Shown here piece by piece: positions 831-35,709 of a stretch of DNA of 46,124 nt. The notes under the pieces were generated by a model, which saw nothing but the letters and a program-made list of their open reading frames with translations, searched no databases and was not told the DNA's origin. The DNA is from Gammaproteobacteria bacterium (lineage in GTDB: Bacteria; Pseudomonadota; Gammaproteobacteria; Xanthomonadales; SZUA-5). Position numbers and translations under genes: made by a program. The number at the start of each line of letters is the position of its first letter. Within the stretch, counting starts at the first letter, position 1. Where the stretch lies: positions 1-46,124 of the forward strand of contig JAUIFV010000016.1 in assembly GCA_030430155.1 (NCBI GenBank). Direction: 5' to 3'.

Positions 831-2188
831 GCGTGGCCGATCTGTTGGCTCTGGGTTTGTTTGCGGCGCTGCTGGCGGCGCTGACTTTGGGCTATCCGGT
901 GGCGCTGACCCTGGGCGGTGTGGCGCTGATCTTTGCCGGCATCGGCACCGCGCTGGGCGCTTTTGATCCCGCCTTCCTGGCCGCCCTGCCCAATCGCATC
1001 TTCGGCATCGTCAGCAACCAGACCCTGCTTGCGGTGCCGCTGTTCGTGTTCATGGGGGTGATGCTGGAGCGCTCCAAGCTGGCCGAGCGGCTGCTGACCA
1101 CGATGGCGGCGCTGTTTGGCGGGATGCGCGGCGGACTGGCGCTGAGCGTGCTGGCGGTGGGCGCGGTGCTCGCCGCCAGCACCGGCATCGTCGGCGCCAC
1201 GGTGGTGACCATGGGGCTGATCTCGCTGCCGACCATGCTGCGCCTGGGCTACGACCCCAAACTCGCCTCCGGGGTGATTGCCGCATCCGGCACCCTGGGG
1301 CAGATCATTCCGCCCTCGCTGGCCCTGGTGCTGCTCGGCGATGTGCTTTCCAATGCCTATCAGCAGGCCCAGCTCAAGCAGGGCATATTCTCGCCGGAAA
1401 CGGTGTCGGTGGGCGATCTGTTCATGGGCGCGCTGGTGCCCGGATTGCTGCTGGTGCTGCTCTACGCGCTGTGGATCCTGTGCTGCGCCTGGCGCCGGCC
1501 ACAGTCCGCGCCGGCGTTGCCGGCCGCAGAGCGGCCATCGGTGGCGCCCAGAGCGCTGGTCGAGGTGCTGCTGCCGCCGCTGCTGCTGATCGTCGCTGTG
1601 CTGGGCTCGATCCTGGCCGGCTTTGCCACCCCTACCGAGGCCGCCGCTGTCGGTGCGGTAGGCGCCACACTGCTCGCCGCGGCAGGACGACAGCTGACCT
1701 GGAAACGACTGCGCGAGAGCCTGGACAGCACCATCAAGGTCACCTCGATGGTCTACCTGATCCTGATCGGCGCGGCGCTGTTCTCCCTGGTGTTCCGCGG
1801 CTTCGGCGGCGACGAGCGGGTCGCCGAGCTGCTGCAGGGGCTGCCCGGTGGGCTGCTGGGCGCGCTGCTGCTGGTCAATCTGTGCATGTTCCTGCTCGGC
1901 TTTGTGCTCGACTTTATCGAGATCACCTTCGTGGTGGTCCCGATCGTGGCCCCAGCGCTGCTGATGCTGGGCGTCGACCCGGTGTGGCTGGGCGTGCTCT
2001 TCGCCATCAACCTGCAGACCTCTTTCCTCACCCCGCCCTTCGGCTTCGCCCTGTTCTACCTGCGCGGCGTCGCCCCGCCCGAGCTGGCCACCGCCGACCT
2101 GTACCGTGGCGCGGTGCCTTTTGTGGGCATACAGCTGTTGATGCTGGCGGCGTTGATGGTGTTTCCGGGGTTGGTTTGGGTGCCTTAG
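827..2188 (+). CDS. dctM: TRAP transporter large permease subunit (DctM-like)
   Basis: This 453-residue, very hydrophobic protein has about twelve predicted membrane segments and family hallmarks: 'LLAVPLFVFMGVMLERS' near residues 65-82, 'ASTGIVGATVVTMGLISLPTM' near 117-137, 'ASGTLGQIIPPSLALVLLG' near 152-170, and 'NLQTSFLTPPFGFALFYLRG' near 394-413. DctM is the transport channel that works with DctQ and an extracytoplasmic binding protein. A loop at about 175-195 (NAYQQAQLKQGIFSPETVS) is longer than in basic C4-dicarboxylate DctM proteins and suits the subgroup often annotated for mannitol or haloacid-type substrates; that assignment is weak. A heptad repeat element follows the stop by 12 bases. 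Confidence 0.92.
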   Translation: MSVADLLALGLFAALLAALTLGYPVALTLGGVALIFAGIGTALGAFDPAFLAALPNRIFGIVSNQTLLAVPLFVFMGVMLERSKLAERLLTTMAALFGGMRGGLALSVLAVGAVLAASTGIVGATVVTMGLISLPTMLRLGYDPKLASGVIAASGTLGQIIPPSLALVLLGDVLSNAYQQAQLKQGIFSPETVSVGDLFMGALVPGLLLVLLYALWILCCAWRRPQSAPALPAAERPSVAPRALVEVLLPPLLLIVAVLGSILAGFATPTEAAAVGAVGATLLAAAGRQLTWKRLRESLDSTIKVTSMVYLILIGAALFSLVFRGFGGDERVAELLQGLPGGLLGALLLVNLCMFLLGFVLDFIEITFVVVPIVAPALLMLGVDPVWLGVLFAINLQTSFLTPPFGFALFYLRGVAPPELATADLYRGAVPFVGIQLLMLAALMVFPGLVWVP

Positions 2189-2200
2189 CTAGGAGCGATT

Positions 2201-2280
2201 AGGGCACAGGGCCCAGGGCATAGGGCCCAGGCGGGGAGGCGTGGCTTGGTCTGGGCCCTGAGCCCTGGGCCCTGGGCCCT
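2201..2280. repeat. Paired heptad element A (convergent gap dctM / propeller gene)
   Basis: The left arm (2201-2231) reads AGGGCAC, AGGGCCC, AGGGCAT, AGGGCCC, AGG. The right arm (2251-2280) is its near reverse complement; its bottom strand reads AGGGCCC, AGGGCCC, AGGGCTC, AGGGCCC, AG. The spacer is 19 nt. The arms could pair over about 27 of 30 positions. The element fills the gap between the stop codons of two convergent genes, which suits a bidirectional terminator, although there is no T-tract. Confidence 0.9.
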
Positions 2281-2285
2281 ATTCT

Positions 2286-5231
2286 TCAATCCTCCCTCCC
2301 CCGCAGCTTGAACGCCGGCTTCAATCGCGGCTCTGGCTTGCGCGGGGGCTTGACCTTCAGGGTCTGGTCGGCACTGCCGCGCTCGTTGATTACGCGCAGG
2401 GTGTAGTCGCCGGGGAAGACGTAGAGCGGCTGGCCCAGCGCGACCGCCTGGGCCACCGGCGTCTCGCTCCACGGTCGCGATTCACCTTCGGCAGCGTCCG
2501 AGGCTTCGACTTTGCCGGCCTCGGCGGCGAGCGCGGCGTCGGCATCGAGCAGCAGATCCCAGCGCACGCCGTTGATGCCCTGGCGCAGATTCAGCTCGCG
2601 CTCGGCAATCACCCGCTGCTGCGCATCGAGTACCTGTAGTCGACCATCACCGGCCTGGGCGGACCACAGGTGGAAGTCCAGCTGCGGCAGCGCATCGGGG
2701 TCCTCGAACCAGCGCCGCTGACCCGAGCGCCAGCGCTCGCTGGCCTGCACGGCGTCGACATGAAACAGGTGCAAATCGGCGTCGCGTACCGTTGCCGACA
2801 GATCTTGCAGCGGCAGCACATCGAGCACCCAGACGCTACGCCCGTGGGTGCCGGCAACCAGCTCGCGATCGCGCGGATGCACCACCAGATCGTGGACCGG
2901 CACATTGGGCAACCCCTCGCCCAGCGCAAGCCAGCTGTCGCCGCGATCGATGGAGGCATAGACGCCACGATCGGTGCCGACGTAGAGCACTTCGGGATTG
3001 ACCGGGTCCTCGCGCACCACGTTGATCGGCTCGGCGGGCAACCCGGCGGCGATCGAGGTCCAGCGCCTGCCCAGATCCTCGCTGCGATACAGATAGGCGC
3101 GCTGGTCGTCGTTGCGGTAGCCGTTCAGGGCCAGATAGACCCGCTCGCGCTCGGCGCTACTGGCGACCACTCGGGATACCCACAGCTCGCTGGGCAGGCC
3201 CTTGCTGCGCGACGACCAGCTGACCCCGCCGTCGACGCTGACGTGGATCTGGCCGTCGTCAGTACCGGCCCAGATCAGTCCGAACTGGATACTCGACTCC
3301 GAGATACTGGTAATCGTGGCAAAGGGCACATCGCCGCGCTGTTCAGAGCGACTCAGATCGGGGCTGATAGCGCTCCAACTGACGCCCTGATCCATCGAGC
3401 GATAGAGCCGATTGGCGCCCATGTAGAGGATGTCGGGGTTGTGGCTGGACAGCGCGATGGGCGTCTGCCAGTTGAAGCGCAGGGCCGGGTCGAACAGGCC
3501 GGGGCGCGGCCGCACCTGACCGTCGTTGCTGCTGCCCTGGCGTGAGTAGAAGCCGAACTGATAGCCGCTGTAGAAAATCTTGGGGTCGCGCGGATCGATC
3601 TGGATCTGCATGCCGTCGCCGCCGTTGATCATGCTCCAGGCGTCGATGTCGTCCGGGTCGGCCTTGGACGAACCTCTCAGCGTGCCGTTGTCCTGCAGTC
3701 CGGTGTAGACGTTGTAGGGCTCGGCCATGTCGACGGCCACCGCATAGCTCTGCCCTACCGCCTGCCGGTCCAATTTCAGCCAGCTCTCCCCGCCGTCGTA
3801 GCTGACGTCCAGGCCGCCGTCGTTGCCGCTGTAGATGCGCTGCGGGGCTTGCGGATCAATCCACCAGGCGTGGTGGTCGACGTGCACGTCAGGCTGGTTG
3901 ATGCCAACGAAGTTCTTGCCGCCGTCGGCGCTGCTCATCATCGGCACGCCGAGCAGATAGATGCGGTCGGGGTCATCCGGGGCTACTCGGATCTGCCCGA
4001 AGTAGTAGCCGAAGGTGTAGTAGAACTCGCCCAGCACCGCCTCGTGGGTCTTCGCCCAGCGCTGACCGCCATCGTCGCTGCGGTAGACCTCGATGCCGCG
4101 CGGGGCGGCATCGAACAGCGCGCTGTTGCCGTCGCTGAGCTTGTCGCGCAGCTGCTGCATGCTCAGCTCGCCGCTGCGCAGCATCTGCATCAGCTTCTTG
4201 GCATCGATGTCCAAAGGCAGATCGGTGCCGCGCAGGAAGCCATCGACCAGATCGGTATCCTGGCGCAGGAACTCGTCCTTGCTCATATCGCGCAAACGCA
4301 GCGGGGCCAGCGGGTGCTCGCCGCGATCGGCCAGCTCGGCCGGCACGGTCTGCTGGTTGTCGAGCACCGCGTAGACGGTCTGCGGCTGGCTGGGCGCCAC
4401 CGCCAAACCAATGCGGCCGACGTGATTGCCGCTGGGAAAGCCGTTGCTGAGCCGGGTCCAGCTGTCGCCGCCATCGCTGGACTTGTAGATCCCGCTGCCC
4501 GGCCCACTGTCGCGGAAATCCCAGGGCCGCCGCGCCTTGTCCCATAGTGAGGCGTAGATCACCTGCGAGTTACTGGGATCGAAGCTCAGATCAGTGGCGC
4601 CGGTCCATTCGTTGGCGCCGGCCAGGACCTGCTCCCAGCTGTCCCCGCCGTCCACCGTTCTATACACGCCGCGCGCTCCGCCGGGGGTGTACAGCCGACC
4701 CTGCACCGCGACATAGACGCGATCGCCGTTGTCCGGATCGACGATGATCCGCGCGATGCGATCGGCATCGTCCAGCCCCGCCGGGCGGAAGCTGGCGCCG
4801 CCGTCGTCGGAGCGAAACAGGCCCAGACCGGCGTAGGAGGAGCGCGAGGCGTTGGCTTCGCCGCTACCCACCCAGAGGCGCTGCGGATGGTTGGGATCGA
4901 TGGCCAGATCGCCGCTGATCATGGTCGCCAGCTGGTCGCTCAGAGGGCTGAAGGTGACCCCGTTGTTGGTGGTCTTCCAGACCCCGCCGGAGGCGTAGGC
5001 GACATAGAAGCTGTAGGGCTCGCCCGGCACTACTTCGATGTCGACGATGCGTCCGCCCTGGACGATGGGTCCGATGGCGCGCCAGCTCAACCCGGCCAGC
5101 GGCGTGCTGGCCTGCAGCTGCTGATGCCGTTCCCAGGCCGTCCAGCGCTCCGCGCTGGTGCTCGGCGCGGCGCTGGCAGCGAAATTGAGCGTAAGGGCAA
5201 GACCAGCGGCAAGCCAGCGTTGGATGGACAT
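2286..5231 (-). CDS. Secreted sortilin/BNR-type beta-propeller protein (WD40/YVTN/BNR-like)
   Basis: This 981-residue protein begins with a signal peptide (MSIQRWLAAGLALTLNFAAS, cleavage near ASA-AP). I chose the ATG at 5231 because GGGAG lies about 6 bases upstream; the frame continues further upstream but only through heptad-repeat sequence. The body carries many BNR/Asp-box units (for example SDDGGASF, TVDGGDSW, SSDGGDSW, SYDGGESW, SVDGGVSW, SIDRGDSW). These are the hallmark of sialidase- and Vps10/sortilin-like propellers, which large secreted bacterial proteins of this class carry in two blocks of blades. The C-terminal ~150 residues look like a beta-sandwich, ending in a Lys/Pro-rich tail (LKVKPPRKPEPRLKPAF). 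No catalytic function can be assigned. It is probably exported and periplasmic or surface-associated. Confidence 0.88.
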   Translation of the reverse strand: MSIQRWLAAGLALTLNFAASAAPSTSAERWTAWERHQQLQASTPLAGLSWRAIGPIVQGGRIVDIEVVPGEPYSFYVAYASGGVWKTTNNGVTFSPLSDQLATMISGDLAIDPNHPQRLWVGSGEANASRSSYAGLGLFRSDDGGASFRPAGLDDADRIARIIVDPDNGDRVYVAVQGRLYTPGGARGVYRTVDGGDSWEQVLAGANEWTGATDLSFDPSNSQVIYASLWDKARRPWDFRDSGPGSGIYKSSDGGDSWTRLSNGFPSGNHVGRIGLAVAPSQPQTVYAVLDNQQTVPAELADRGEHPLAPLRLRDMSKDEFLRQDTDLVDGFLRGTDLPLDIDAKKLMQMLRSGELSMQQLRDKLSDGNSALFDAAPRGIEVYRSDDGGQRWAKTHEAVLGEFYYTFGYYFGQIRVAPDDPDRIYLLGVPMMSSADGGKNFVGINQPDVHVDHHAWWIDPQAPQRIYSGNDGGLDVSYDGGESWLKLDRQAVGQSYAVAVDMAEPYNVYTGLQDNGTLRGSSKADPDDIDAWSMINGGDGMQIQIDPRDPKIFYSGYQFGFYSRQGSSNDGQVRPRPGLFDPALRFNWQTPIALSSHNPDILYMGANRLYRSMDQGVSWSAISPDLSRSEQRGDVPFATITSISESSIQFGLIWAGTDDGQIHVSVDGGVSWSSRSKGLPSELWVSRVVASSAERERVYLALNGYRNDDQRAYLYRSEDLGRRWTSIAAGLPAEPINVVREDPVNPEVLYVGTDRGVYASIDRGDSWLALGEGLPNVPVHDLVVHPRDRELVAGTHGRSVWVLDVLPLQDLSATVRDADLHLFHVDAVQASERWRSGQRRWFEDPDALPQLDFHLWSAQAGDGRLQVLDAQQRVIAERELNLRQGINGVRWDLLLDADAALAAEAGKVEASDAAEGESRPWSETPVAQAVALGQPLYVFPGDYTLRVINERGSADQTLKVKPPRKPEPRLKPAFKLRGRED

Positions 5232-34087: not shown

Positions 34088-35284
34088 ATGACCGACACCA
34101 TCCACATCGACGGCTCCAAAGGCGAAGGCGGCGGGCAGATCCTGCGTAGCGCGCTATCGCTGTCGGTACTCACCGGCCAACCGCTGCGCTTGACTAAGAT
34201 CCGCGCCGGCCGCGCCAAACCGGGGCTGATGCGTCAACACCTGACCTGCGTGCAGGCTGCGGCGCAGCTCAGTGCGGCCGATCTGCGCGGCGCCGAGCTG
34301 CGCAGCACCGAGCTGGAGTTCCGCCCCAACGCGCTGGTTGGCGGCGCGCATCATTTCGCCATCGGCACCGCCGGCAGCACCATGCTGGTGCTGCAGACCG
34401 TGCTGCCGATACTGCTCCGTGCCGAGGGCCCCAGCCGGGTCTGCATCGAGGGCGGTACCCACAACCAGATGGCGCCCAGCGCCGACTTCATCAACGCCCT
34501 GTTTCTGCCGCTGTTGCGGCGCATGGGTGCCCAGGTGGAGCTGGAAGTGGAACGGGTCGGCTTCTACCCCACTGGCGGCGGCCGCATTGTGCTTCAGGTC
34601 AGCCCGTCGACGCTGCAGCCGATCAGCCTGATCGAGCGCGGCGCGCTGCGCGCTATCGAGGCACAGGTGCTCAGCGCCGGTCTGCCGCAGCACATCGCGA
34701 TGCGCGAGCTGACCACCGTGGCCGACCACTACGGGTTGCGTCGCGAACCCTTAGCCCGCACCTTCCGTGAGCATTCCGATCTTCGCGCCGTGACCCGATC
34801 TGCTCCCGCCGATCGGCTCGACGTAGAAGGGACTACGCCTTTGCCGCTCTCTGGTCCGCGGACCGGATCACGACACGATCTCGACGCCCTCGCGACGAAT
34901 GCTCACGGAAGGTCCGGGCTCGTGCACATCGACCTGGGCCCGCGCGCCGGCACCGGCAATGTGCTGGCTGTCGCCGCCCATTTCGAGCATTGCAGCGAGT
35001 GGGTCACCCAATATGGCCAGCGCGGTGTACGTGCCGAGCAGGTAGCGCAGCGCGCCTGCGCCGAGCTGGACCAGTTTCTGGGTCATCAAGGGGCGGTCGG
35101 CGAGCACCTTGCCGATCAGCTGCTGCTGCCCATGGTGCTGGCCGGCGCTGGCGAGTTCAGCACTGGCGTGGTCAGCGAGCATCTGCGCAGCAATGCGGCA
35201 GTCGTGGAGGCCTTTGGGGTGGCCAAAATCAGCATTGAAGCCGATGAGCTCGGCCGGCGGGTCAGCGTTGTTGGCGCGCGCTGA
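34088..35284 (+). CDS. rtcA: RNA 3'-terminal phosphate cyclase RtcA with an in-frame insertion
   Basis: This 398-residue protein has cyclase motifs 'IDGSKGEGGGQILRSALSLS', 'IRAGRAKPGLMRQHL', 'GTAGSTMLVLQTVLP', 'GGTHNQMAPSADF', 'FYPTGGGRI' and 'VGEHLADQLLLPMVLAGAGEF'. The adenylylated nucleophile corresponds to His365 in 'VVSEHLRSNAAVVE'. RtcA converts RNA 3'-phosphate ends to cyclic phosphates. The protein is about 56 residues longer than usual. The excess lies at about residues 222-278 and is encoded by an inverted-repeat-bounded segment; without it the nucleophile would be residue 309, the E. coli number. ATG 34088 is chosen because the family starts with this sequence. Confidence 0.93.
   Translation: MTDTIHIDGSKGEGGGQILRSALSLSVLTGQPLRLTKIRAGRAKPGLMRQHLTCVQAAAQLSAADLRGAELRSTELEFRPNALVGGAHHFAIGTAGSTMLVLQTVLPILLRAEGPSRVCIEGGTHNQMAPSADFINALFLPLLRRMGAQVELEVERVGFYPTGGGRIVLQVSPSTLQPISLIERGALRAIEAQVLSAGLPQHIAMRELTTVADHYGLRREPLARTFREHSDLRAVTRSAPADRLDVEGTTPLPLSGPRTGSRHDLDALATNAHGRSGLVHIDLGPRAGTGNVLAVAAHFEHCSEWVTQYGQRGVRAEQVAQRACAELDQFLGHQGAVGEHLADQLLLPMVLAGAGEFSTGVVSEHLRSNAAVVEAFGVAKISIEADELGRRVSVVGAR
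34753..34920. repeat. 168-bp inverted-repeat element inserted in frame in rtcA
   Basis: The left end (34753-34776) and right end (34897-34920) are 24-nt inverted repeats with one mismatch; the perfect inner 17 nt read ACCTTCCGTGAGCATTC on the left. The interior contains a perfect 12-nt palindrome, GGTCCGCGGACC (34853-34864), and further partial pairing, so the whole could form a long imperfect stem. The length, 168, is exactly 56 codons, the frame is open throughout, and the segment coincides with the extra residues of this RtcA. I see no clear target-site duplication. Confidence 0.85.
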
Positions 35285-35439
35285 CCCGGATGTCCAGCGT
35301 TCCGGGCCATCGTGCCCAGCGGCGTTCGCGATGCTGTCCAGGTGTAAAAACTGACGATCGGCGGCAAGTTGCGACCTGCTCGGTCATCTTCCGAGCCGCT
35401 GCTCTGCTACCATTTGGCGAAGCCCTATCGTCTTTTGCC

Positions 35440-35709
35440 ATGCCAGATCTGCTGATTCGAGGAATAGACGGCGAACTCGCCGAGCGCATCAAGGAGCACG
35501 CGCGCACCAGCGGAACCACGCTCAATGCCTGCGTGCTGGACCTGCTGCGCACGGCGCTGGACGGCGGTAGCGCGAAGATGGTGGAGCGGGGGATGCTGGA
35601 GATCGACCAGCAGTCCGAGCTGCGGGTCCTTGGCGGCAGCTGGAGCGGCGACGAGGCCAAGGCCTTCCGCGATGCCCTGGCTTCGATGAAGGACATCAAG
35701 GGAAGCTGA
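35440..35709 (+). CDS. FitA/Arc-like ribbon-helix-helix protein (orphan antitoxin-type)
   Basis: This 89-residue protein's N-terminal 40 residues (MPDLLIRGIDGELAERIKEH, then ARTSGTTLNACVLDLLRTAL) fit the ribbon-helix-helix fold of FitA/Arc antitoxins. The C-terminal part (SELRVLGGSWSGDEAKAFRDALASM) resembles the toxin-neutralising tail of such antitoxins. The usual partner, a VapC/FitB PIN-domain nuclease directly downstream, is missing: 188 bases of noncoding sequence follow, then an unrelated membrane protein. It is thus an orphan antitoxin or a stand-alone DNA-binding regulator. Confidence 0.8.
   Translation: MPDLLIRGIDGELAERIKEHARTSGTTLNACVLDLLRTALDGGSAKMVERGMLEIDQQSELRVLGGSWSGDEAKAFRDALASMKDIKGS

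Follow-up and report, generated by a model that had tools for sequence, protein, structure and literature searches.

An in-frame palindrome in a gammaproteobacterial rtcA gene belongs to a dispersed repeat family and is probably an IS1380-type miniature element

The rtcA gene and its insertion

The window analysed here, a 46,124-nt stretch of a gammaproteobacterial genome (contig JAUIFV010000016.1; the source assembly, in 287 contigs, is called G000 below), carries on its forward strand the rtcA gene for RNA 3'-terminal phosphate cyclase (positions 34088-35284), and within this gene lies the 168-bp palindromic segment (34753-34920) that is the subject of this report. The reading frame continues through the segment without interruption and encodes 398 amino acids including the insert, with the identity of RtcA given by matches to NCBIfam NF003246 (409 bits, cut-off 352) and Pfam RTC (259 bits). 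The segment is bounded by 24-nt terminal inverted repeat (TIR) arms, 34753-34776 on the forward strand and 34897-34920 on the reverse strand, which pair at 23 of 24 positions (96% complementary) across an intervening 120 nt, in agreement with the single mismatch described in the first-pass annotation of this DNA. Folding of the 168-nt strand yielded -85.3 kcal/mol compared to a shuffle mean of -59.8 (standard deviation (sd) 3.63, z -7.0), a value that none of 200 shuffles equaled. Rfam searches yielded no match anywhere in the window.

The palindrome contributes residues 223-278 of RtcA, a net gain of 56 codons that leaves the frame open, and a match to the RTC_insert domain follows at residues 287-329 (profile positions 56-99 of 102). 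The first-pass annotation had ascribed the excess length of the protein to this segment and had proposed aligning related enzymes to see whether residues ~222-278 are missing there; the orthologues agree with the insertion. A search of 151 genomes yielded RtcA matches in 15 besides G000. One of these, in a genome of the same genus (G002), covers residues 3-126 at a contig end and stops before the insertion site. In the other 14, the two match stretches overlap, touch or lie no more than 51 bp apart; nine of these orthologues were aligned residue by residue, with the 56 residues absent from all nine, and five, which a motif filter had passed over, were judged by match coordinates. One empty-site orthologue belongs to a congener and has an N-terminal part 92% identical to that of G000 RtcA, and the congener G001 has LRREQLQHTDLG where the G000 protein reads LRREPL[56 residues]VHIDLG. 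On the solved RtcA structure 1qmh, the break maps between chain residues 224 and 230. The predicted nucleophile, His365 (codon 35180-35182, forward strand), becomes residue 309 when the 56 residues are subtracted, which is the number of the nucleophilic histidine in E. coli RtcA. The rtcA segment is an insertion, missing from all 14 readable orthologues.

A dispersed family of palindromes

The segment is not alone in its genome. A query comprising positions 34745-34930 matched at least 39 other places in G000 at E<=5.7e-9 (40 of 73 candidates were scored), with the best of them, on contigs C277, C3 and C139, 80-82% identical over a 122-bp core (34776-34897, forward strand). In addition, the TIR pattern TAGCCCGCATATTTCATGAG, with up to three mismatches, occurred 53 times on the forward and 50 times on the reverse strand of G000, compared to 0 and 0 for the reversed control pattern. 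From 59 arm pairs read in G000, two unrelated palindromes (L299 and L018) were excluded; the 57 distinct copies retained are a lower bound for the genome. These copies were selected by arm similarity, and their arm symmetry is thus partly a product of selection. With two copies of 84 and 85 bp set aside for the open-frame and arm-agreement counts, the remaining 55 long copies span 155-211 bp, most commonly 180 bp (n=19) or 179 bp (n=13). The rtcA palindrome is therefore one member of a multicopy, dispersed family. The first-pass annotation had called for a search for other copies of the 24-nt end; the core and the outer TIR letters are multicopy, but of the exact 24-nt ends G000 holds no second copy.

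Related copies were found in three of the 150 other genomes searched, namely G001 and G002 of the same genus and G021 of the same order, and the closest relative of the rtcA element is a copy in G002 (84% identity over 146 bp). Palindromes of the same architecture fit a two-armed pattern in at least 116 stretches of named records across many phyla, in hosts including Nitrospira, Deltaproteobacteria/Desulfobacterota, Myxococcales, Planctomycetota, Acidobacteriota, Thioalkalivibrio, Wenzhouxiangella, Sedimenticola, Dokdonella and others. As the pattern itself fixes the outer letters, these stretches document like ends and like size, and do not by themselves indicate common descent of the cores.

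Most of the 55 long copies are bordered by CTAG on one or both sides. In G000 the left border is CTAG in 35 and TTAG in 3 of the 57 copies, the right border is CTAG in 37 of 57, and the two are equal in 28 of 57 copies, 26 with CTAG and two (L021 and L026) with TTAG on both sides. Because CTAG is its own reverse complement, a duplication cannot be told from a longer inverted repeat at CTAG borders; the two TTAG pairs, which are direct repeats, are therefore the informative ones. Among the 116 listed named-record copies, CTAG stands on the left in 81, on the right in 92 and on both sides in 68, and these 68 are also all of the copies with equal borders. The rtcA copy has TTAG on its left (34751-34754, forward strand), one of the three such copies in G000, and CTCG on its right (34919-34922, forward strand), which would be a decayed duplicate of the target site.

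Several further members are worth recording. At L109:7849-7878 (JAJDNL010000014.1), two family ends without a core form a perfect head-to-head palindrome, CTAGCCCGGATGTTTCATGAAACATCCGGGCTA, which may be the element reduced to its minimum. Three family copies stand in a row at L030:1182-1857 (G000, contig C176), the last two abutting, as if family copies or their borders serve as targets themselves. A 145-bp CTAG-bordered palindrome of the same type occupies positions 377-521 of L255 (IMGVR_UViG_3300046480_000108), a contig classed as viral, which points to a possible route of spread. A pattern scan of viral contigs found 2 stretches, and searches of plasmids, phages and viral contigs with the element or with insertion sequence (IS) head DNA yielded zero or two weak matches.

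Probable relation to IS1380 transposons

With 164-168 bp, terminal inverted repeats, dispersed further copies and no transposase gene of its own, the rtcA copy behaves like a miniature inverted-repeat transposable element (MITE), and the ends of the family point to a source of transposase. An element in genome G438 (contig C109), from a search that matched 1 of 369 genomes of the class, begins with CTAG followed by CCCGGATTATTCATGAATAGATAAAAC and then encodes a 457-aa transposase with matches to NF033539 (IS1380; 363 bits, cut-off 180) and PF13701 (429 bits); its end after CTAG reads CCCGGATTATTCATGAA (the 17 nt used for arm comparison). The same IS1380-type head occurs on two contigs of the Sedimenticola genome G161, both broken off there, and in the G438:C109 and G161 elements one end each is readable. 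Two complete elements, one on the Stutzerimonas zhaodongensis megaplasmid NZ_CP076684.1 (annotated as an IS1380 family transposase) and one on G438:C46 (1738 bp from CCCG to CGGG), carry CTAG followed by CCCGCATTTCTCAC, inverted, at both ends. One G000 MITE subfamily has ends that likewise start with CTAG and the same first 13 nt, CCCGCATTTCTCA, as these complete IS1380 transposons of two other genomes. Four G000 copies (L003, L010, L016 and L022/L027) carry the 13 nt without any change at 6 of their 8 ends, and arms of this type are present in L002, L003 and L004, which are among the best G000 core matches to rtcA. ISAcr4, also of the IS1380 family, has somewhat similar ends (CCGGAATTATGCATGA / CCGGGATTATTCACGA). 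The insertion sequences differ from the rtcA element in size and content, being ~1.62-1.74 kb long with a transposase gene, whereas the rtcA element is 164 bp with no coding content of its own.

From these likenesses, the transposase of the family most likely belongs to the IS1380 family. IS701, the target of which is YTAR-like, was considered as an alternative mobilizer and rejected; NF033540 matches in Nitrococcus mobilis have ends (TACTACAGTTG) unlike those of the family, and G000 has no IS701 match. These Nitrococcus mobilis IS701 elements (L225, L228, L231 and L232) lie at CTAG or TTAG targets too, and a CTAG border by itself is therefore no guide to the transposase family. A second search for IS1380, covering 14 genomes, yielded matches in 6 (2 above cut-off), with no complete element bearing these ends among the loci read. 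One locus from this search, L238 (G157, CP070843.1), has ends CACTAGCCTGGATTCCC and holds at 1353-3570 an IS1380-like 586-aa open reading frame (ORF) within an 18/18 inverted repeat, CACTAGCCTGGATTCCCA; it is a further CTAG-bordered relative with different inner ends.

We consider it very probable, at roughly 0.87, that the rtcA insert is a non-autonomous IS1380-type MITE, inserted at a CTAG-like target by a transposase acting in trans. The empty site in the orthologues, the core common to the family and the rtcA copy, and the complete IS1380 transposons with family-like ends and CTAG on both sides are observed; transposition in trans and a 4-bp duplication at the rtcA site are what we infer from them. 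The MITE proper, CCCG...CGGG, would occupy 34755-34918 (164 bp), judging by the IS1380 elements in L332 and L333 and by the two copies with TTAG direct repeats. An IS1380-family transposase supplied in trans would have recognized ends beginning CCCG and joined the 164-bp element to a CTAG-like target in rtcA, leaving a 4-bp duplication. As 164 bp of element and 4 bp of duplication make 168 bp, a multiple of three, the rtcA frame would have been kept, and a copy without a stop in that frame would have given RtcA 56 additional residues, next to or in the RTC insert domain, with the other parts of the enzyme kept.

Several observations weigh against this assignment. The rtcA arms match the IS1380 ends poorly, at 8 and 7 of 13 positions for CCCGCATTTCTCA and at 10 and 11 of 17 for CCCGGATTATTCATGAA, so that it is the core, and not the arms, that places the rtcA copy with IS1380. 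In the nearest relative, from G002, the left arm is defaced and the right arm belongs to the other TIR type, which makes the parent subfamily ambiguous. The flanks TTAG and CTCG are not an intact duplication; they fit one that was altered afterwards on each side, which falls short of proof. Finally, searches of G000, G001, G002 and G021 with NF033539 and PF13701 revealed no IS1380 transposase. PF13701 also yielded no match in G167, nor in G161 despite the IS1380-type head at its contig ends, and absence from such assemblies is therefore weak evidence.

That a repeat was wrongly joined into rtcA during assembly or binning is suggested by the fragmentation of the assembly, but the insert lies mid-contig, a single open frame crosses both junctions, the two flanks align at one and the same residue of a single orthologue, and the arms match nowhere else in the genome, so the insert was not duplicated in error from another assembled locus; an artefact is highly improbable. 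Just as improbable is a palindrome of the repetitive extragenic palindrome (REP) or bacterial interspersed mosaic element (BIME) type, moved by a REP-associated tyrosine transposase (RAYT, IS200/IS605-like). GTAG- and CGTC-tagged REPs resemble the family in being dispersed palindromes, some of them intragenic, and the family ends contain TAG; PMC3733652 describes GTAG-tagged REPs, with intragenic REPs in uvrA and other genes of Thioalkalivibrio. REPs are 20-40 bp long (PMC3733652), whereas the rtcA element is longer and has two symmetric ends. REPs have a tag at one end and a tyrosine transposase. A pair of symmetric ends together with a 4-bp direct repeat is the usual arrangement in DDE transposons, and IS1380 transposons carry ends of this kind.

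The first-pass annotation had likened the segment to the Rickettsia palindromic elements (RPEs), the best-known mobile palindromes with in-frame insertions, which the review PMC10969869 describes as ~150-bp palindromes inserted in frame in genes of known function. The rtcA segment shares with them its mobile, palindromic nature and an in-frame place within such a gene. As a rule for the family, in-frame insertion was not supported. A mechanically called ORF that extends at least 40 aa ahead of the element and at least 30 aa behind it spans 5 of the 57 G000 copies and 4 among the 116 listed named-record copies (9 among 173 together), and a recognized domain (a Pfam or NCBIfam match, a test that copies in genes without such a match would escape) stands on both sides of the element in rtcA only, 1 of 57 in G000 and 0 among the 116. 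Two spanning ORFs that resembled in-frame cases were rejected, both judged by eye: L163 (783 aa) is Arg-rich with no family match and L210 (758 aa) has a plausible protein start behind the element. In L016 an AMP-binding domain starts behind the element, and in L009 a weak ADC match lies ahead of it.

Nor do open frames stand clearly above the chance level. At least one frame is open inside the element in 44 of 55 long G000 copies, where shuffles average 37.9 (sd 3.9, maximum 47 in 100 shuffles), which favors a coding role with an excess of only 1.6 sd, and in 77 among the 116 listed named-record copies against a shuffle mean of 88.5 (sd 4.3), a deficit. The CTAG border introduces TAG in one frame, and with the border codons counted a frame is open right through in 28 of 57 G000 copies and in 22 among the 116. 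Lengths of the 55 long copies are spread over the residues modulo 3 (residue 0, n=22; residue 2, n=18; residue 1, n=15). A mobile family that had evolved for in-frame insertion and spread because many proteins tolerate its peptide would explain the in-frame 168-bp palindrome within a conserved enzyme gene, but only one of the 57 copies is a recognized in-frame case and open frames are not in excess, so that this reading is very unlikely; the family does not look specialized for in-frame insertion, and the comparison with coding RPEs fails as far as open frames tell. For the proposed IS1380-type MITE in rtcA, it seems to be by chance in frame and length, not by design, that the reading frame survived.

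Dispersed elements with occasional in-frame or intragenic copies have been described elsewhere in this class, and the earlier statement that no such case was known in this bacterial group needs qualifying. According to PMC5896051, QMITE1 and QMITE2 of Coxiella comprise tens of dispersed MITE copies, a few of them in frame in hypothetical ORFs, with direct repeats of 2-3 or 7-11 nt; the intragenic REPs of Thioalkalivibrio uvrA (PMC3733652) are a further published case. Compared by description only, the QMITEs are likewise dispersed gammaproteobacterial MITEs, some in frame, and their direct repeats differ in length from the 4 bp proposed for the G000 family. PMC3542288 reports MITEs that interrupt ORFs as pseudogenes and are said to share no ends with the insertion sequences of that genome. 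A literature search, mostly at title and abstract depth, turned up neither an IS1380-derived MITE nor a description of these repeat sequences.

The enlarged enzyme and the symmetry of its arms

Insertion of the MITE as proposed might have inactivated RtcA and left the gene to decay, a question of consequence that does not compete with the proposed origin. Relative to the congener, amino-acid changes on the G000 lineage number 6 against 8 upstream of the insert and 8 against 3 downstream, and the latter split is what decay would lead one to expect. The split is small, however; the ratio of nonsynonymous to synonymous substitution rates (dN/dS) is 0.09 upstream and 0.15 downstream, values that also cover the period preceding the insertion, the frame runs open to its end and the predicted nucleophilic His is kept. 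Decay is somewhat unlikely, and the rates would fit continued constraint; they hint at faster change downstream, which numbers of this kind cannot establish. A single-sequence structure prediction of RtcA (mean predicted local distance difference test score, pLDDT, 39) was uninformative on the position of the 56 residues. Downstream of rtcA, an ORF at 35290-35709 looks by eye like a small ribbon-helix-helix protein of the antitoxin type.

The arms of the rtcA copy, AGCCCG[C/G]ACCTTCCGTGAGCATTC, are unusual within the family. Their inner 17 nt, with up to two mismatches, have no other match in G000, and across 398 genomes of the order a single further match turned up, in G101, one-sided and with 3 mismatches. 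Set against the common family arm AGCCCGCATATTTCATGAG, the two arms of the rtcA copy share four changes (arm positions 9, 10, 13 and 15), each of which occurs in some other copy and the combination of which was found nowhere else. At arm position 21 the two rtcA arms carry the same base, where the arms differ in 45 of the 55 long copies, and the left arm is without ~12 nt that are present in sister copies. Agreement between arms is general. At positions 7, 9, 10 and 11, which are free of symmetry selection in the named-record sample, the two arms agree in 108, 91, 98 and 109 among the 116 listed copies, compared to shuffle means of 72, 67, 40 and 61. Arm-to-arm copying, by template switching or hairpin repair, may have rewritten one rtcA end from the other with the frame left open and the enlarged RtcA functional; we regard this combined proposal as unlikely, and an unseen parent subfamily would also explain the rtcA arms. 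If it were true, a transposon-derived palindrome would be a working and still evolving part of a conserved enzyme.

With the rtcA insertion, the incorporation of a mobile palindrome into a conserved enzyme can be seen cleanly outside Rickettsia, and a congener with the empty site is there for comparison. The case also suggests that one transposase family serves many CTAG-bordered palindromes, in Nitrospira, several delta lineages, Planctomycetota, Acidobacteriota and Gammaproteobacteria, and the link to IS1380 makes the spread of these palindromes, their choice of target and the symmetry of their arms testable.
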